Shown one piece after another: positions 2,807 through 18,637 of a stretch of DNA of 24,623 bases (its first letter is position 1; every line of letters starts with the position of its first letter). Below the pieces are notes generated by a model. The model did not search any database. It was not told where the DNA came from and worked only from the letters and a program-made list of their open reading frames with translations. The translations under genes were made by a program, and so were the position numbers. The DNA is from a virus. Location: IMG/VR virus record IMGVR_UViG_3300033153_003921, positions 1-24,623 of that record; one strand, given 5' to 3'.

Positions 2807-3199
2807 ATGGCAACTAAACAAGAATATAAAAAAGCAATAGAATTAAGCAATGGAACAAGGGTAGATGTGTCTAAAATACTCAAAGTAAGTCGTTCCGCAG
2901 TAACACAATATGTAGAAAAACATTCAGACATAAGAGAACTCTTAGAACAAAAAAGACTAGAAATGATAGATATGGCAGAATCAGAGATATTTAGTCAATT
3001 AAACTTTAATGACCCAAAGTCAGAATCAAGTGCAGCAAACATAAGACAAAAGGCAAGTCAATTTATTCTGAAGAATTTGGGTAAAAACCAAGGATGGGTA
3101 GAAAAACAAGAAACTTCAATAGAACACAAGGGAGAACAAATCAAAGTAATAATTGAGGAGAAGAAGTCGGATGGAAATAAACCTTCAACTGAGTCCTAA
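2807..3199 (+). CDS. terS: Terminase small subunit (DNA recognition)
   Basis: Small terminases bind the packaging site and recruit TerL. The N-terminal part, AIELSNGTRVDVSKILKVSR followed by SAVTQYVEKH, has a helix-turn-helix pattern (about residues 11-40). The rest is helical (RELLEQKRLEMIDMAESEIF, then NIRQKASQFILKNLGKNQGW), as in TerS oligomerisation domains; the ending around NLGKNQGW is common in phage TerS proteins. The ATG at 2807 is preferred to the GTG at 2804 just before it. The 3' end overlaps the TerL start by about 29 bases. Length (130 aa) and position immediately before TerL support the call. Confidence 0.75.
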   Translation: MATKQEYKKAIELSNGTRVDVSKILKVSRSAVTQYVEKHSDIRELLEQKRLEMIDMAESEIFSQLNFNDPKSESSAANIRQKASQFILKNLGKNQGWVEKQETSIEHKGEQIKVIIEEKKSDGNKPSTES

Positions 3200-4508
3200 A
3201 CAGAACCAAGCGTTTAAAGTTTTAAGAGATAAACAAACTACTGAACTGTTTTTCGGCGGTGGAGCAGGGGGGGGGAAGTCTTACTTGGGCTGTATGTGGT
3301 TAATATTAAGCTGTCTGATGTATCCTGGCACAAGATACCTAATGGGTAGGGCAAGGCTAAAAAGTCTTAAGGAGAGTACGTTTCTGACGTTTCTAGGGGT
3401 ATTGAGGGATTGGGGACTAAAAAAAGACAAAGATTGGCGATATAACGCAATTGAAGGAGTAGTTCATTTTACAAATGGTTCATCTGTCTATTTAAAGGAC
3501 CTTTTTTTGTATCCAACAGACCCAGAATTTGATTCACTAGGTAGTACTGAATATACTTATGCATTTATGGATGAAGTAAGCGAAATCACCGAGAAAGCCA
3601 AAATGATTGTAATGAGCAGATTAAGGTTCAAGTTAGATGAGTATGGATTGATCCCAAAGCTACTGATGGCTAGTAATCCCGCTAAAAATTGGGCATATAA
3701 AGAATACTGGAGACCCTGGACAGAAGGAAAATTACCAAGTTATAGACAATTTATTCCAGCTTTGGTGGGAGATAATCCGTTTATAAGTAAATATTATGCT
3801 GAAAACTTAAACAAATTAGACAAAAACTCTAAAGAAAGACTATTATATGGTAATTGGAATTATGATGATGATCCAGCCAAATTGTTTGATTACGATAAGA
3901 TACTAGACATTTTCACTAATAATATATTTATTCCCACTGGGGCTCAAAATTATATATCTTGTGATGTTGCACGATATGGGAGTGATAAAACAGTAATAAT
4001 GGCTTGGAGAAACTGGAAAATAGAACAAGTCGTCGTAATGGATAAATCAAGTATTAAAGAGATTGTCACAGAGATAGAAAAATTAGCCGAAAAACACCAA
4101 GTACCACATTCTAATATCGTAATAGATGAAGACGGTGTGGGCGGCGGAGTGGTAGATTATCTAGAAAATTGTAGAGGATTTGTTAATAACTCATCACCTC
4201 TTGAGACTGAATTCAGCAAAACAAGACACAACTATCGTAACCTAAAGACTCAATGTTATTTTAAACTAGCCGAAATGGTTAAACTAGGCCAAATAGCAAT
4301 ATGTGAAGTTCCACTGGAAGTCAAGGAGGGTATCATTGAAGACCTCGAACAGATAGCCCAAAAGAACATGGAACGAGATGGTAAGATAGAATTAATAGGT
4401 AAAGAAGAAATAAGAGAAAGGTTGGGTCGAAGTACAGATTATTCAGATGCAATGTCAATGCGTTGTATATTTGATTTAGAAGATTATTATACCCCCCATG
4501 TTGCTTGA
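3171..4508 (+). CDS. terL: Terminase large subunit (packaging ATPase and nuclease)
   Basis: TerL pumps DNA into the prohead and cuts it. In the 445-residue form from ATG 3171, the Walker A loop is GGGAGGGKS (residues 29-37), Walker B is YAFMDEVSE (about 130-138) and the coupling motif is LMASNP (165-170). The C-terminal nuclease has ISCDVARYGSDKT with D265, VIDEDG (D319, D321) and DYSDAM (D423, D426), the acidic residues expected for the RNase H-like metal site. ATG 3171 has a purine-rich site (GAGGAG, 3155-3160) and is preferred to the TTG at 3153. The P-loop is encoded across a run of nine G (3267-3275). It overlaps TerS by 29 bases and is followed by a new promoter. Confidence 0.95.
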   Translation: MEINLQLSPKQNQAFKVLRDKQTTELFFGGGAGGGKSYLGCMWLILSCLMYPGTRYLMGRARLKSLKESTFLTFLGVLRDWGLKKDKDWRYNAIEGVVHFTNGSSVYLKDLFLYPTDPEFDSLGSTEYTYAFMDEVSEITEKAKMIVMSRLRFKLDEYGLIPKLLMASNPAKNWAYKEYWRPWTEGKLPSYRQFIPALVGDNPFISKYYAENLNKLDKNSKERLLYGNWNYDDDPAKLFDYDKILDIFTNNIFIPTGAQNYISCDVARYGSDKTVIMAWRNWKIEQVVVMDKSSIKEIVTEIEKLAEKHQVPHSNIVIDEDGVGGGVVDYLENCRGFVNNSSPLETEFSKTRHNYRNLKTQCYFKLAEMVKLGQIAICEVPLEVKEGIIEDLEQIAQKNMERDGKIELIGKEEIRERLGRSTDYSDAMSMRCIFDLEDYYTPHVA

Positions 4509-9796: not shown

Positions 9797-10651
9797 ATGG
9801 CAATGAATAAATTGAATGAGTATATAACTAGGGCAGACGGAACAGCAGGAGAAACTCTTATTCCACAACTAATATTACCAAAAGTAATTGATGAAGCAGA
9901 AAAGAATTTAATTCCTAGAGAAATGGCAGCATTTGTAATTGGACCATCTGAATTTAAGGGTAGCACAATGTACCTTGATTTAGAATCTCCAAACACAATG
10001 GATGTTCGAACAGTAGGAGAAGGAGCAGAAATACCATTAGATAATATGAGTTTTGATAGTGTTTCATTTACACCAGTTAAATATGGTGTAGCAATTAGAA
10101 TCACTAGAGAAATGATGGAGGATTCACAAGTAGCTTTATTAGAAAGAAATATTCGAGCAGCAGGAAGACGTTTTGCAGATAATGAGACTAATTTAATTTT
10201 AGCAATTTTAGATACAGCAAATGCAACCACAGCGGGTGGAGCAGCAGTAACAATTGCTAATATTGTGGAGTCTATTTATGATGTAAGATCTAATGATTAC
10301 CGTCCAACAGATTATCTTTTAGGGGAAGAACAATACTCCGGTTTAATGAATATTGATACTTTTGTAGAAGCTGACAAAGCTGGTAACACCACAATGATGG
10401 GTACCGGTAGAGTTGGAACTATTTTTGGATTAAATGTATCTACATTTAGTGCAAACGCAGGAGGAAATGCAGTAGCAACATCTGGTTATATCTTTGATAG
10501 AACCCAGGCTTACGCAATTGCAATCGCAAGAGACATCACTATGGAAAGTTTAACACTACCTACATATGATATGGAGGGAGCAGTTTTAACTCAAAGAATC
10601 GCAGTATCAGCTTTACGAACTAAAGCAATCTCTAAGATTACAACAGGATAA
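9797..10651 (+). CDS. Major capsid protein (HK97 fold)
   Basis: This 284-residue protein builds the icosahedral shell. Recognisable elements are the E-loop region (GSTMYLDLESPNTMDVRTVG, then EGAEIPLDN, about residues 55-84), the P-domain with YGVAIRITREMMEDSQVALL (about 96-115) followed by the long spine helix, and the A-domain with NAVATSGYIFDRTQAYAIAI (about 226-245). The end, AVLTQRIAVSALRTKAISKI, is typical of the family. There is no long N-terminal delta domain, which fits a separate or nested scaffold. The start follows the cement gene stop by one base; no Shine-Dalgarno site is visible despite the expected high expression. A promoter-like region follows the gene. Confidence 0.9.
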   Translation: MAMNKLNEYITRADGTAGETLIPQLILPKVIDEAEKNLIPREMAAFVIGPSEFKGSTMYLDLESPNTMDVRTVGEGAEIPLDNMSFDSVSFTPVKYGVAIRITREMMEDSQVALLERNIRAAGRRFADNETNLILAILDTANATTAGGAAVTIANIVESIYDVRSNDYRPTDYLLGEEQYSGLMNIDTFVEADKAGNTTMMGTGRVGTIFGLNVSTFSANAGGNAVATSGYIFDRTQAYAIAIARDITMESLTLPTYDMEGAVLTQRIAVSALRTKAISKITTG

Positions 10652-15605: not shown

Positions 15606-15621
15606 TCAAACTAAATAAAAT

Positions 15622-15636
15622 GGAGGTAAAAAAATA
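15622..15636 (+). promoter_or_regulatory. Ribosome-binding site deciding the AUA start
   Basis: GGAGGT at 15622-15627, six A bases, then ATA at 15634-15636. The same GGAGGT motif sits 4-5 bases before the ATG of the 16705 and 20308 genes, so the layout is that of a normal start apart from the third base of the codon. Confidence 0.65.
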
Positions 15637-16644
15637 GCACGACATATTTCAGATTCAAACAAAGTAGTAATATTTCACGAATCAGGTACATACGGAACTC
15701 AAAGTGACGCAGCAGGTTCATCTTTTTGGCCAGGACAAGTAACTGAAAACACAATTGATGATAAAGAAGGAAAGTTAGTAAATACATACTTAGGAACAGC
15801 AAGTCGTAACTTTGGTGACATAGACCAAGGACCACAAGACGTTACTGGTACACTTACAATGCATCCTCAAGATATGAGGTTTGCTTTTTGGGCAATCGGT
15901 TCAGGAGCAGATGGATCAGCAGGAAGCACAGTTAGTCATTTGGTTGAGGAAACATCCACAAGCGCATGGCAAAGTCCATTCACTAGTGGTACAGACAGAC
16001 TTCAAGCACCAATCAGTTTTCAGATAGAAGATTCAAGTCAGAGTCCAGGAACGGGAGCAAACTTTATTAGAACAATCAATGGAGCAGTTGTTGATAGTGT
16101 AACTATCAATGCAGTTCAAGGCGAAAAGGTAAGCATGGATGTTAATTACATCGGACAAAGTTTAACTCATTCATCTGGAGCAACAACAATAACACCAACA
16201 GAAGAATTAAATAGACCATATCTTTGGAGTGATTGTACACTTGAGATTTCGGGGAATACTGTAGAAACAGCAAAAGACATCAGTTTCGAAATAGCAAATA
16301 ATGTAACTGCACCACACTACTTAAACGGTAGCCGAGTAGTTGCAGCACCGTTCCCAGGAAACAAAGAATACACTTTAAATGTGACAGCAGATCTAAGCTC
16401 ACCTTTGGCGGATGTACTTTATACAGATTTATACAAGAATAACGGAGTATTCAATACATCGTTTGACTTAAACGCAGATGTTACAGCAGGTTCTCAACAC
16501 ACAACATTCTTTATGAGTGGTTGTAGGATAATGAGCATGGATGTACCTTCTACTACAGAGGGTCCAGTTGAAGTTACTATGGAAATCAAACCACAAATTG
16601 TAATTGGCTCTGCATTCGACAGAGTACTTTATAAAGCATTTTAA
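15634..16644 (+). CDS. Major tail tube protein with apparent AUA start
   Basis: This protein forms the tail tube. The only standard start in frame that leaves most of the coding sequence is ATG 15859, which would delete 75 conserved-looking residues. Upstream, GGAGGT (15622-15627) is followed six bases later by ATA (15634), giving (M)ARHISDSNKVVIFHESGTYG, a very natural tail-protein N-terminus, then DVTGTLTMHPQDMRFAFWAI (about residues 69-88). The complete protein is 336 residues with many beta strands and YNGSR/NVTADLSS-type tube segments. Alternatives: ATG 15620 with a -1 slip on A-AAA-AAA (15628-15634) immediately before TAG, or a missing A in a seven-A run. A hairpin-like element follows the stop. 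Confidence 0.8.
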   Translation: MARHISDSNKVVIFHESGTYGTQSDAAGSSFWPGQVTENTIDDKEGKLVNTYLGTASRNFGDIDQGPQDVTGTLTMHPQDMRFAFWAIGSGADGSAGSTVSHLVEETSTSAWQSPFTSGTDRLQAPISFQIEDSSQSPGTGANFIRTINGAVVDSVTINAVQGEKVSMDVNYIGQSLTHSSGATTITPTEELNRPYLWSDCTLEISGNTVETAKDISFEIANNVTAPHYLNGSRVVAAPFPGNKEYTLNVTADLSSPLADVLYTDLYKNNGVFNTSFDLNADVTAGSQHTTFFMSGCRIMSMDVPSTTEGPVEVTMEIKPQIVIGSAFDRVLYKAF

Positions 16645-16647
16645 TTA

Positions 16648-16674
16648 GCATGCGCTTAATTTTTAAGCATGCGC
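16648..16674 (+). terminator. Hairpin and repeated GCATGCGC after the tail tube gene
   Basis: GCTTAA (16654-16659), loop TTT, TTAAGC (16663-16668) form a perfect 6-bp stem with a T5 run at its top. GCATGCGC is also directly repeated at 16648-16655 and 16667-16674. It lies four bases after the stop of the presumably abundant tail tube mRNA, so partial termination or mRNA 3'-end protection are plausible. Confidence 0.4.
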
Positions 16675-16704
16675 CGAAAGGCAACTAAATTAAGGAGGTA
16701 ATAA

Positions 16705-16938
16705 ATGAAAACAAAAGAAATTGAAATAAGTGGAAAGACTTATACTGTCAGTGAATTGAAGTATAAGGATGTAGCTGCTGTTGCTGATTTAGAAAAATCA
16801 GAAGTAGCCAGGTCTCTATTAATTAAATCAACTGGAATAACAGATGAAGAATATGATAATCTAAATATGAAAGACGGAATTGATTTAATGAAAGAAGTAA
16901 ATGAATTAAATGGACTTAACACTGAGGATTTTCAGTAG
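16705..16938 (+). CDS. Tail assembly chaperone (gpG-like)
   Basis: This 77-residue protein starts after AAGGAGGT with good spacing. It opens with a short strand module (KEIEISGKTYTVSELKYKDV) followed by helices (AAVADLEKSEVARSLLIKST, ITDEEYDNLNMKDGIDLMKE), the usual form of siphovirus tail chaperones that coat the tape measure. It lies between tail tube and tape measure, exactly where the gpG/gpGT pair belongs. It ends GLNTEDFQ-stop, and the next frame continues without its own start, implying frameshift production of a longer form. Confidence 0.8.
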   Translation: MKTKEIEISGKTYTVSELKYKDVAAVADLEKSEVARSLLIKSTGITDEEYDNLNMKDGIDLMKEVNELNGLNTEDFQ

Positions 16939-17108
16939 GCTATTCTGATAATAAATTAAAGTCAGAGTTAGCCATTTGTGATCATTTTCATTGGACACTT
17001 GATTATTTGAGAAATATTAATTTATCAGATTATTTAGGAGTTATAGCATATATGAGACAATTAGAGAGAGAACATAAGAAAGCCATCAGAAAGAGTAAAA
17101 GGAAATAA
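16926..17108 (+). CDS. Tail chaperone T-part, probably made by -1 frameshift (gpGT-like)
   Basis: In the -1 frame relative to the chaperone, an open stretch runs from 16926 to the TAA at 17106-17108, which overlaps the tape-measure ATG. It encodes SVGYSDNKLKSELAICDHF, then HWTLDYLRNINLSDYLGVIA and YMRQLEREHKKAIRKSKRK, a plausible helical T-domain. There is no ATG/GTG/TTG near its beginning and a TGA at 16923-16925 closes it upstream. Slippage at T-TTT-C (16929-16933), one codon before the TAG of the 0 frame, would join F76 of the chaperone to this S, giving a 134-residue protein, as with lambda gpG/gpGT. Confidence 0.75.
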   Translation, partial: GFSVGYSDNKLKSELAICDHFHWTLDYLRNINLSDYLGVIAYMRQLEREHKKAIRKSKRK

Positions 17109-18637
17109 TGGTAAGCGGATTAATGGGCGGTATAGCTGGTGGGGCAACTGTTGCAATTATTATTAAGGCAATAGACCAGTTTAGTGGCGTATTTAAAAAT
17201 GTAAATAAGGGTATGTTGGCTGTTGGCGCTGGAATAACTGCCATAGGGATAGCGGGACTTGGAGCAATAACAGGACTTACAAAATTAGCTGGGCAATTTG
17301 AACAGACTACAATTGCATTTACAACTATGCTTGGAAGTGCAGAAAAAGCAGATAAGTTATTAAAAGAATTAGCAGATTTCGCCTCAAAGACACCATTCAC
17401 AATTACAGGAATAGAACAAAACGCCAAGATGCTTTTAGCTATGAGTATTCCCCTAGAAGATTTATTACCTACCCTTAAATCATTAGGAGATATTTCTTCT
17501 GGATTAAATGTACCACTAGAGAGATTAGCACTTAATTTTGGACAAGTAAAGGTTCAGGGAAAATTAACCGGAAGGGAGTTAAGAGATTTTAGTGTAGCGG
17601 GTGTTCCATTAATAGCAGAGTTAGCAAAAAATCTTAACAAATCAGAAGCAGAAATTAAAGATATGGTTTCTGCTGGTAAAATAGGATTTGACGAAGTAGA
17701 AAAAGCATTCCAGACAATGACTGGTGAGGGTGGAAAATTCTTTGATTTAATGGATAAACAAAGTGAAACATTACTTGGACAAATAAGTAATATTAAAGAC
17801 AGTTTTATAAAAATAGCGAGAGTTATGGGGGCTATATTTTTACCAGCAGCAAAAGGGGTAGCAGAAAAATTAGCTGTTTTAGTGGAGTGGTTTGAACAAC
17901 ATCCTAAAATAGCCAAATGGACAACAATTATACTTGCGGTTGGAACAGCATTGGCACTAATAGGCGGACCATTATTAATATTAATTACAATGTTACCGGC
18001 ATTAACAGTTGGATTGGGTATGGTTGCTGGGGGAATGACAGCTGTTAGTATAGGGGGAGCACCCCTATGGGCTATTATACTGGCAATAATTGCAGCAATT
18101 GCAGCGCTTATAGCAATAGGAACACTTTTATATAAAAATTGGGATAAAATAAAAGAATATGGGTTAAAGTTTTATAATTTCTTGAAGAAACTATTCGCAC
18201 CGCAGATAGCAATAATTAAATTATATATAAAAGCGTGGGGAATTGCACTTAGATGGTTATGGGATAACGGACTCGGTTGGCTTTGGGAAAAAATGAAGGG
18301 ATTTTATAATTGGATGAAGGATGTATTTTTAGGCATATTTGATAAGGTACTTAATGCGATAAAATCGGTTGGAAAATTTATTGGTAAGGTGGCAGATTTT
18401 AGTTCGAGTGTTGGGGGTGGAATTACATCATCTGGAGATAAAATACTTGGCTCAAGACAATCGGGTGGATCAATTAATAAAACCGGATTATATAAATTAC
18501 ACGAAGGAGAGTTTGTTGTTCCAAAGAATAGTAGCGGTAGTGGGGTTAATGTATTTATAGAAAATGTTATTGGACTTGACCCAGAAGAAATAAGTCGTGC
18601 ACTTTCAGACGAACTAAACAATAAGGTTAGTTTATGA
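17108..18637 (+). CDS. Tail tape measure protein (509 aa)
   Basis: The tape measure sets tail length and is ejected with DNA. Residues about 64-165 carry the conserved phage tape-measure N-terminal signature: FEQTTIAFTTMLGSAEKADK, FASKTPFTITG, LGDISSGLNVPLERLALNFG, and KVQGKLTGRELRDF. Residues about 272-342 are strongly hydrophobic with probable membrane helices. The C-terminal part has Trp/Lys-rich helices (LRWLWDNGLGWLWEKMKGF) and a Gly-rich end (RQSGGSINKTGLYKLHEGEF). The protein is short for the family; at roughly 0.15 nm per residue a tail of about 75 nm is expected (inference). It is coupled to the chaperone (TAATG) and to the hub gene (ATGA at 18634). Confidence 0.93.
   Translation: MVSGLMGGIAGGATVAIIIKAIDQFSGVFKNVNKGMLAVGAGITAIGIAGLGAITGLTKLAGQFEQTTIAFTTMLGSAEKADKLLKELADFASKTPFTITGIEQNAKMLLAMSIPLEDLLPTLKSLGDISSGLNVPLERLALNFGQVKVQGKLTGRELRDFSVAGVPLIAELAKNLNKSEAEIKDMVSAGKIGFDEVEKAFQTMTGEGGKFFDLMDKQSETLLGQISNIKDSFIKIARVMGAIFLPAAKGVAEKLAVLVEWFEQHPKIAKWTTIILAVGTALALIGGPLLILITMLPALTVGLGMVAGGMTAVSIGGAPLWAIILAIIAAIAALIAIGTLLYKNWDKIKEYGLKFYNFLKKLFAPQIAIIKLYIKAWGIALRWLWDNGLGWLWEKMKGFYNWMKDVFLGIFDKVLNAIKSVGKFIGKVADFSSSVGGGITSSGDKILGSRQSGGSINKTGLYKLHEGEFVVPKNSSGSGVNVFIENVIGLDPEEISRALSDELNNKVSL

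Follow-up and report, generated by a model that had tools for sequence, protein, structure and literature searches.

Layout of the locus

We analysed a viral contig of 24.6 kb (24,623 nt; IMG/VR record IMGVR_UViG_3300033153_003921), referred to below as the window, in which two overlapping genes, G and T, precede the gene of the tail tape-measure protein. All coordinates are positions in this contig on the plus strand. The GC content of the window is 34% and its gene order is that of the standard head-tail type. The sequence evidence makes it very probable that the overlap of G and T serves as a signal for programmed −1 ribosomal frameshifting, which would yield two tail-assembly chaperones (G and G-T) from one start. 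The features of the locus are as follows:

16705..16938, +: G, tail-assembly chaperone, 0 frame, 77 amino acids, stop TAG at 16936-16938 (PHROG matches, AlphaFold model)
16926..17108, +: T, open reading frame (ORF) in the −1 frame, 60 codons, stop TAA at 17106-17108 (conservation, helical model)
16926..16932, +: putative slippery heptamer G_GAU_UUU with the core T_TTT at 16929-16932 (conserved TTT and preceding T, stop bracketing)
16933..16937, +: spacer CAGTA, 5 nt, from the slip codon to the stem
16938..16973, +: downstream hairpin with arms at 16938-16949 and 16961-16973, a bulged base at 16968 and an 11-nt loop (folding, covariation)
16692..16699, +: Shine-Dalgarno-like AAGGAGGT, 5 nt ahead of the G start (sequence)
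15619..16644, +: tail tube protein, open frame from 15619, ATG at 15859 (PF18906 Phage_tube_2, E 1.6e-19)
17108..18637, +: tail tape-measure protein (PF20155 TMP_3, E 1e-27; phrog_9959, E 1e-75)

The G ORF ends in D-F-Q-TAG and the −1 frame is open from 16926 to a TAA that overlaps the tape-measure ATG (17108) as TAATG; frame and coordinates had been given correctly in a preliminary description of this DNA. G and T overlap by 13 nt, counting the stop. The slip codon TTT lies at 16930-16932 within T_TTT_C (16929-16933), and the T codons that would be read after a shift (16932-17105) encode 58 amino acids (SVGYSDNK...SKRK). No ATG, GTG or TTG precedes the conserved core of T in the window, where the first TTG is found at 17007 and the first ATG at 17052. 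The preliminary description had also proposed a helical domain of 58 residues without a start of its own, and both points hold, the former with a helical model (pLDDT 84). As T has no start codon, annotators are likely to miss its product. Two copies of AGCATGCGC with an AT stretch between them (16649-16679) also lie in the gap that separates the tail tube stop from the ribosome-binding site of G.

Conservation of the −1 frame

To gather relatives, we used G, the tape measure, the terminase and an alignment of T as queries in scans of viral contigs. The comparison set comprises 41 distinct G-T loci from many data sets, namely the window and 40 related viral contigs, and throughout this set the G-T pair sits between the tail tube and the tape-measure genes. 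Every one of the 41 loci places T in −1 relative to G, and the other two frames contain stops over the same stretch. We saw neither a same-frame G-T fusion nor a T ORF disrupted by stops among the 41 loci. Relatives with a degraded T, or with a separate start for it, had been named in advance as the observation that would speak against a conserved −1 frameshift for a lambda-like G-T chaperone; no broken T came to light and the proposal stands, with the start codons of some relatives being weighed below.

The divergence of T across the 41 loci was 0.36, 0.24 and 0.52 at codon positions 1, 2 and 3, respectively. As the second position differs least and the third most, T is under selection at the protein level, and judging from these sequences the frame is open far beyond chance. 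The core Ile-Cys...Trp of T is invariant. Searching 84,980 genomes with an alignment of G-T gave no confirmed match, and comparing T or G-T to 50,697 phage records gave no significant one.

The slippery site

The shift codon is TTT and never TTC in 41 of 41 loci, and it is preceded by T in 40, against an expectation for TTT or for the preceding T of 0.73-0.79 per codon (the background frequency of T at third bases); the contigs are kin, so that these site counts are not independent draws. They agree with the earlier proposal that tRNA-Phe slips on T-TTT-C. The most common context is G_GAU_UUU_C, which occurs in 17 loci including the window. Another 12 loci have A_GAU_UUU, two have U_GAU_UUU (L027, L055) and one has C_GAU_UUU (L053). 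In four loci we observed A_AAU_UUU, a canonical heptamer of the type X_XXY_YYZ, and wherever the codon is AAU it has an A before it. Most relatives therefore carry a heptamer of the form R_RAU_UUU, and the codon after TTT is mostly CAG or CAA. Variant sites remain slippery as well: besides A_AAU_UUU there is U_UUU_UUG in L045 and L049, which belong to a different type, and C_CCU_UUG at the equivalent position of a more distant relative (G010). The window heptamer itself is not of the canonical tandem-slip type, as only the UUU codon of G_GAU_UUU permits full re-pairing in the −1 frame.

Stop codons bracket the shift. A TGA that shares bases with the GAT codon shuts the −1 frame upstream in L027 and L055, and L037 has its 0-frame stop, TAA, immediately after TTT; together these limits pin the shift to the decoding of TTT. 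The 0-frame stop is otherwise variable: it lies 0-11 sense codons past TTT with 6 being the most common distance, and it falls within one codon of TTT only in the window, L012 and L037. Since its position varies to this extent, stop adjacency is not a feature of the family. The preliminary description had called the frameshift stop-adjacent, which is true of the window, whose TAG stands one codon past TTT, and not of the relatives; we ruled out stop adjacency as the driver because it is not conserved. Its second characterization, a minimal slippery site TTTTC without other elements, was ruled out by the heptamer and by a hairpin 5 nt downstream that it had missed.

Two further candidates were dropped. 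GAGGA, noted by eye before the window site as a possible local Shine-Dalgarno-like stimulator, is lacking in relatives of the AAT type. Readthrough of the stop codon would not reach T, as another stop follows immediately in the 0 frame. We also noted, in a prophage in a Falkowbacteria genome bin (L217:2435-2934), an unrelated-looking pair of ORFs in −1 relation 3' of the tail tube, the overlap of which holds AGT TTT TTA, i.e. U_UUU_UUA.

The downstream stem

Across the 41 loci the 80 nt 3' of the site had a mean folding z of −1.77 relative to dinucleotide shuffles; four control offsets gave only −0.35 to −0.63. In the window a hairpin of 36 nt starts 5 nt past UUU, opening at the G of UAG; its energy is −12.6 kcal/mol (z −4.7) and none of 200 shuffles was as stable. 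An Rfam search of the window returned no match.

The 5' arm of the stem lies mostly 5-9 nt past UUU across the relatives and the location of its 3' partner differs by clade. Class I stems join the 5' arm to the E-L-A codons of T, mostly with a loop of 8-21 nt; there are 13 strong cases, 12 of which share one branch of the G-T tree with L012. In class II stems the partner of the 5' arm is formed by the W-T-L codons of T, usually across 40-49 nt, for example AAACTCCACT/AGTGGAGTTT in L038, AAGCTCCAT/ATGGAGCTT in L045 and CCTCAAGA/TCTTGAGG in L009. L012, although nested in class I, appears from its predicted fold to pair GGTCAC with GTGACC at the C-D-H codons.

The two arms covary. For class I the pairing energy was −13.0 kcal/mol with a locus's own arm compared to −7.7 kcal/mol with swapped arms (z −6.8, 0 of 20,000 permutations) and for class II it was −9.2 compared to −6.0 kcal/mol (z −6.9, 0 of 20,000), where the classes had been assigned from the same energies that were tested. 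The cleaner tests are therefore those without classification, which gave 0 of 20,000 for both arm regions with z −8.3 and −5.6. In class I two-sided changes fall on third positions of the T frame, for example Leu-3 (C-G or T-A) and Glu-3 (C-G, T-A or A-T). An RNA structure with covariation support thus stands 5-9 nt downstream of the site, as in a stimulated −1 signal.

Protein evidence for G and T

G matched the PHROG tail/chaperone families phrog_166 (E 3e-4) and phrog_1442 (E 6e-3). Its AlphaFold model (pLDDT 89) consists of a beta-hairpin and helices, and when it was compared to predicted viral structures, annotated tail assembly chaperones were among the best matches, one of them from Halobacterium phage ChaoS9, with probability 1.00 and E-values from 2e-3 to 5e-3 (all above 1e-3). 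The comparison to the HK97 chaperone 2OB9 gave a TM of 0.56, but an E-value of 3.4. The T model matched a portion of the Bacillus phage 019DV002 chaperone (E 0.84, TM 0.71, 28% identity). Synteny and layout are the main grounds for assigning the pair to the G/G-T class, and the structural matches add support.

Proposed mechanism and alternatives

Ribosomes translating G would arrive at ...GAG GAU UUU CAG UAG and be slowed by the downstream stem. The tRNA-Phe on UUU would re-pair one base back on U_UU, and in the window tRNA-Asp would re-pair weakly on GGA. Translation would then resume with UCA GUA GGC... and continue to the TAA that overlaps the tape-measure start. The predicted products are G with 77 amino acids and, from the slipping ribosomes, G-T with 134 amino acids, in which E-D-F is joined to S-V-G-Y. 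The re-pairing on U_UU would form the core of the event, with the preceding codon assisting and the stem pausing the ribosome. We infer that slippage takes place in vivo at some rate and that the stem stimulates it. By analogy with lambda, G may bind the tape measure and T may recruit the tail tube.

Several observations weigh against a programmed frameshift. One locus (L056) has no T before TTT, its site being G_GGG_UUU; the stem is weak in 17 of the 41 loci by the energy cut-offs used; ATG, GTG or TTG precedes the T core in 15 loci, which would allow an independent synthesis of T in some of them; and the Foldseek E-values for both G and T are above 0.001. The start codons are also an argument for T being made separately, by termination-reinitiation or from an internal start, instead of as a G-T fusion: ATG occurs before the core in 10 loci and GTG or TTG in 5, and the ORF overlap of just 13 nt in the window would suit such an arrangement. 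We consider it very unlikely nonetheless, given that 26 of the 41 loci, including the window, have no start codon before the core, that a slippery string, T_TTT or another, is always present in the overlap, its third bases being conserved beyond the needs of either protein, and that the slip codon stays fixed while the 0-frame stops move over 0-11 codons. A fusion mRNA created by transcriptional slippage would make use of the T run that is present at the shift point. This run consists of only four Ts in most loci, which is short for polymerase slippage, and such a process has no need for a conserved RNA stem at ribosomal spacing, so that we regard it as extremely improbable. An assembly error or the decay of a formerly fused gene has nothing but the metagenomic origin of the sequences in its favour and is a negligible possibility; it is already refuted by the conservation of the −1 arrangement, which recurs with a protein-coding substitution pattern in 41 distinct contigs from many data sets.

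The last alternative is a variant of the proposed frameshift and does not exclude it: only tRNA-Phe slips and the preceding codon is not involved. The contexts U_GAU_UUU, C_GAU_UUU and A_GAU_UUU, which permit little or no re-pairing of tRNA-Asp, speak for this variant, whereas the rank of G_GAU_UUU as the most common context and the constant A before AAU speak against it, as do mutants of the umbravirus PEMV that lose ~60% of shifting when re-pairing in the P site is blocked (PMC4737148). Slippage of tRNA-Phe alone is hence possible but rather doubtful. For the programmed −1 frameshift as a whole, the mechanism is credible because the layout of the window reproduces that of PEMV.

Host and genome context

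The preliminary description took the window for an archaeal virus, and we lean towards archaea as the hosts. Of the 9 phage records matched by the major capsid protein, 8 are haloarchaeal viruses (22-25% identity); a portion of the portal resembles HCTV-6 (26%), and ATA is the most common Ile codon. In addition, a distant relative that has G, T and terminase in common (contig G009) encodes the archaeal Holliday junction resolvase Hjc (PF01870, E 8e-13; L151:1323-1658). Other genes point away from archaea: the terminase has its nearest matches in Bacteroidota phages (49%) and in genomes of Patescibacteria and Bacteroidota (~50%; range 49-53%), and the tail tube has them in Bacillus phages. T was not found in 286 Patescibacteria genomes in a search that had no positive control. 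The archaeal assignment is thus tentative, with weak resemblances of capsid and portal and the Hjc of a distant relative in its favour and the terminase against it.

The same genes give the window the appearance of a mosaic ancestry, in which the terminase (3153-4508) is nearest to Bacteroidota/Patescibacteria, the capsid (9797-10651) to haloarchaeal viruses and the tail tube (15619-16644) to Bacillus phages. In terminase relatives from four data sets (L064, L069, L071, L072) extra bases that contain an in-frame stop separate YGGGA from AGGGKS in the Walker A P-loop, either TAGCA or TAGCT (5 nt) or, in L064, TAATTCGCA (9 nt). The P-loop is intact in the window terminase; a scar, an intron remnant, recoding or an error are candidate causes of the interruption. 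Three larger related contigs (L138, L151, L153) and the window at 19-1263 carry many sugar and cell-surface genes, several of them named by eye from sequence: glycosyltransferases, nucleotide-sugar epimerase-like and radical-SAM-like genes, an FkbM methyltransferase and an E1 dehydrogenase component.

Comparison with known systems

G/GT frameshifting is a textbook strategy of tailed phages. As in lambda gpG/gpGT, the ORF pair lies between the major tail protein and the tape measure, its overlap holds the slippery site and T is in the −1 frame without a start of its own. In contrast to lambda, where the slip site is G_GGA_AAG, the site here is G_GAU_UUU or A_AAU_UUU and a covarying stem follows ~5-9 nt past the slip codon; we found no usable sequence similarity to lambda gpG/gpGT. 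Bacillus phage 019DV002 (MN176220) likewise has G and a −1 G-T, annotated as joined CDS, between the major tail protein and the tape measure, with a helical T that structurally matches our T model. Its shift region differs in being A-rich (GAA AAA AAG TAA), and its G is longer.

The preliminary description had regarded recoding in archaeal viruses as poorly documented. However, G-T frameshifting in haloarchaeal tailed viruses was predicted in 2013 and has been reviewed since, in the −1 direction for HVTV-1 and HCTV-1/2/5 and in the +1 direction for HSTV-2 (PMC5009743, PMC8211752). The loci studied here share the predicted frameshifted G-T with those viruses and differ in the UUU-based site, the covarying stem and a host that is not established as archaeal.

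The closest parallel to the signal is found in PEMV, a plant RNA virus. In PEMV the heptamer is G_GAU_UUU and in two of its relatives A_AAU_UUU; a 5-nt spacer follows, and a UAG stands 3 nt past the heptamer at the foot of a hairpin (PMC4737148). In PEMV mutants the four Us of GGAUUUU were essential, blocking P-site re-pairing left 36-40% of shifting and changing the stop to a sense codon cost more than 3-fold; both the 5-nt spacer and the stop 3 nt on boost shifting (PMC4737148). The window has the same G_GAU_UUU CAG UAG, the same spacer and a hairpin that opens at the G of UAG. The PEMV gene, in contrast, is an RNA polymerase, and its stem-loop is large and bulged with a long-distance contact. 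As virus and gene are unrelated, the resemblance is apparently convergent.

As far as open papers cover the field, the novelty seems to lie in the chaperone family described here, in its slip site built on UUU and in a covarying stem that changes its 3' partner. We tentatively propose, as a real possibility somewhat short of probable, that a lineage of uncultured archaeal viruses shifts to the −1 frame by means of an umbravirus-like module (R_RAU_UUU, 5-nt spacer, stem) in which the 5' arm is fixed and the 3' partner has been swapped between E-L-A, W-T-L ~45 nt further on and, in L012, C-D-H. If true, this would be, to our knowledge, the first frameshift signal of an archaeal virus with covariation support. 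The 41 sequences allow the slippery site, the shift codon and the presumed stimulatory stem of a frameshift in a prokaryotic virus to be read from evolution, and they suggest a convergence with plant umbraviruses on G_GAU_UUU with a stop 3 nt further on.
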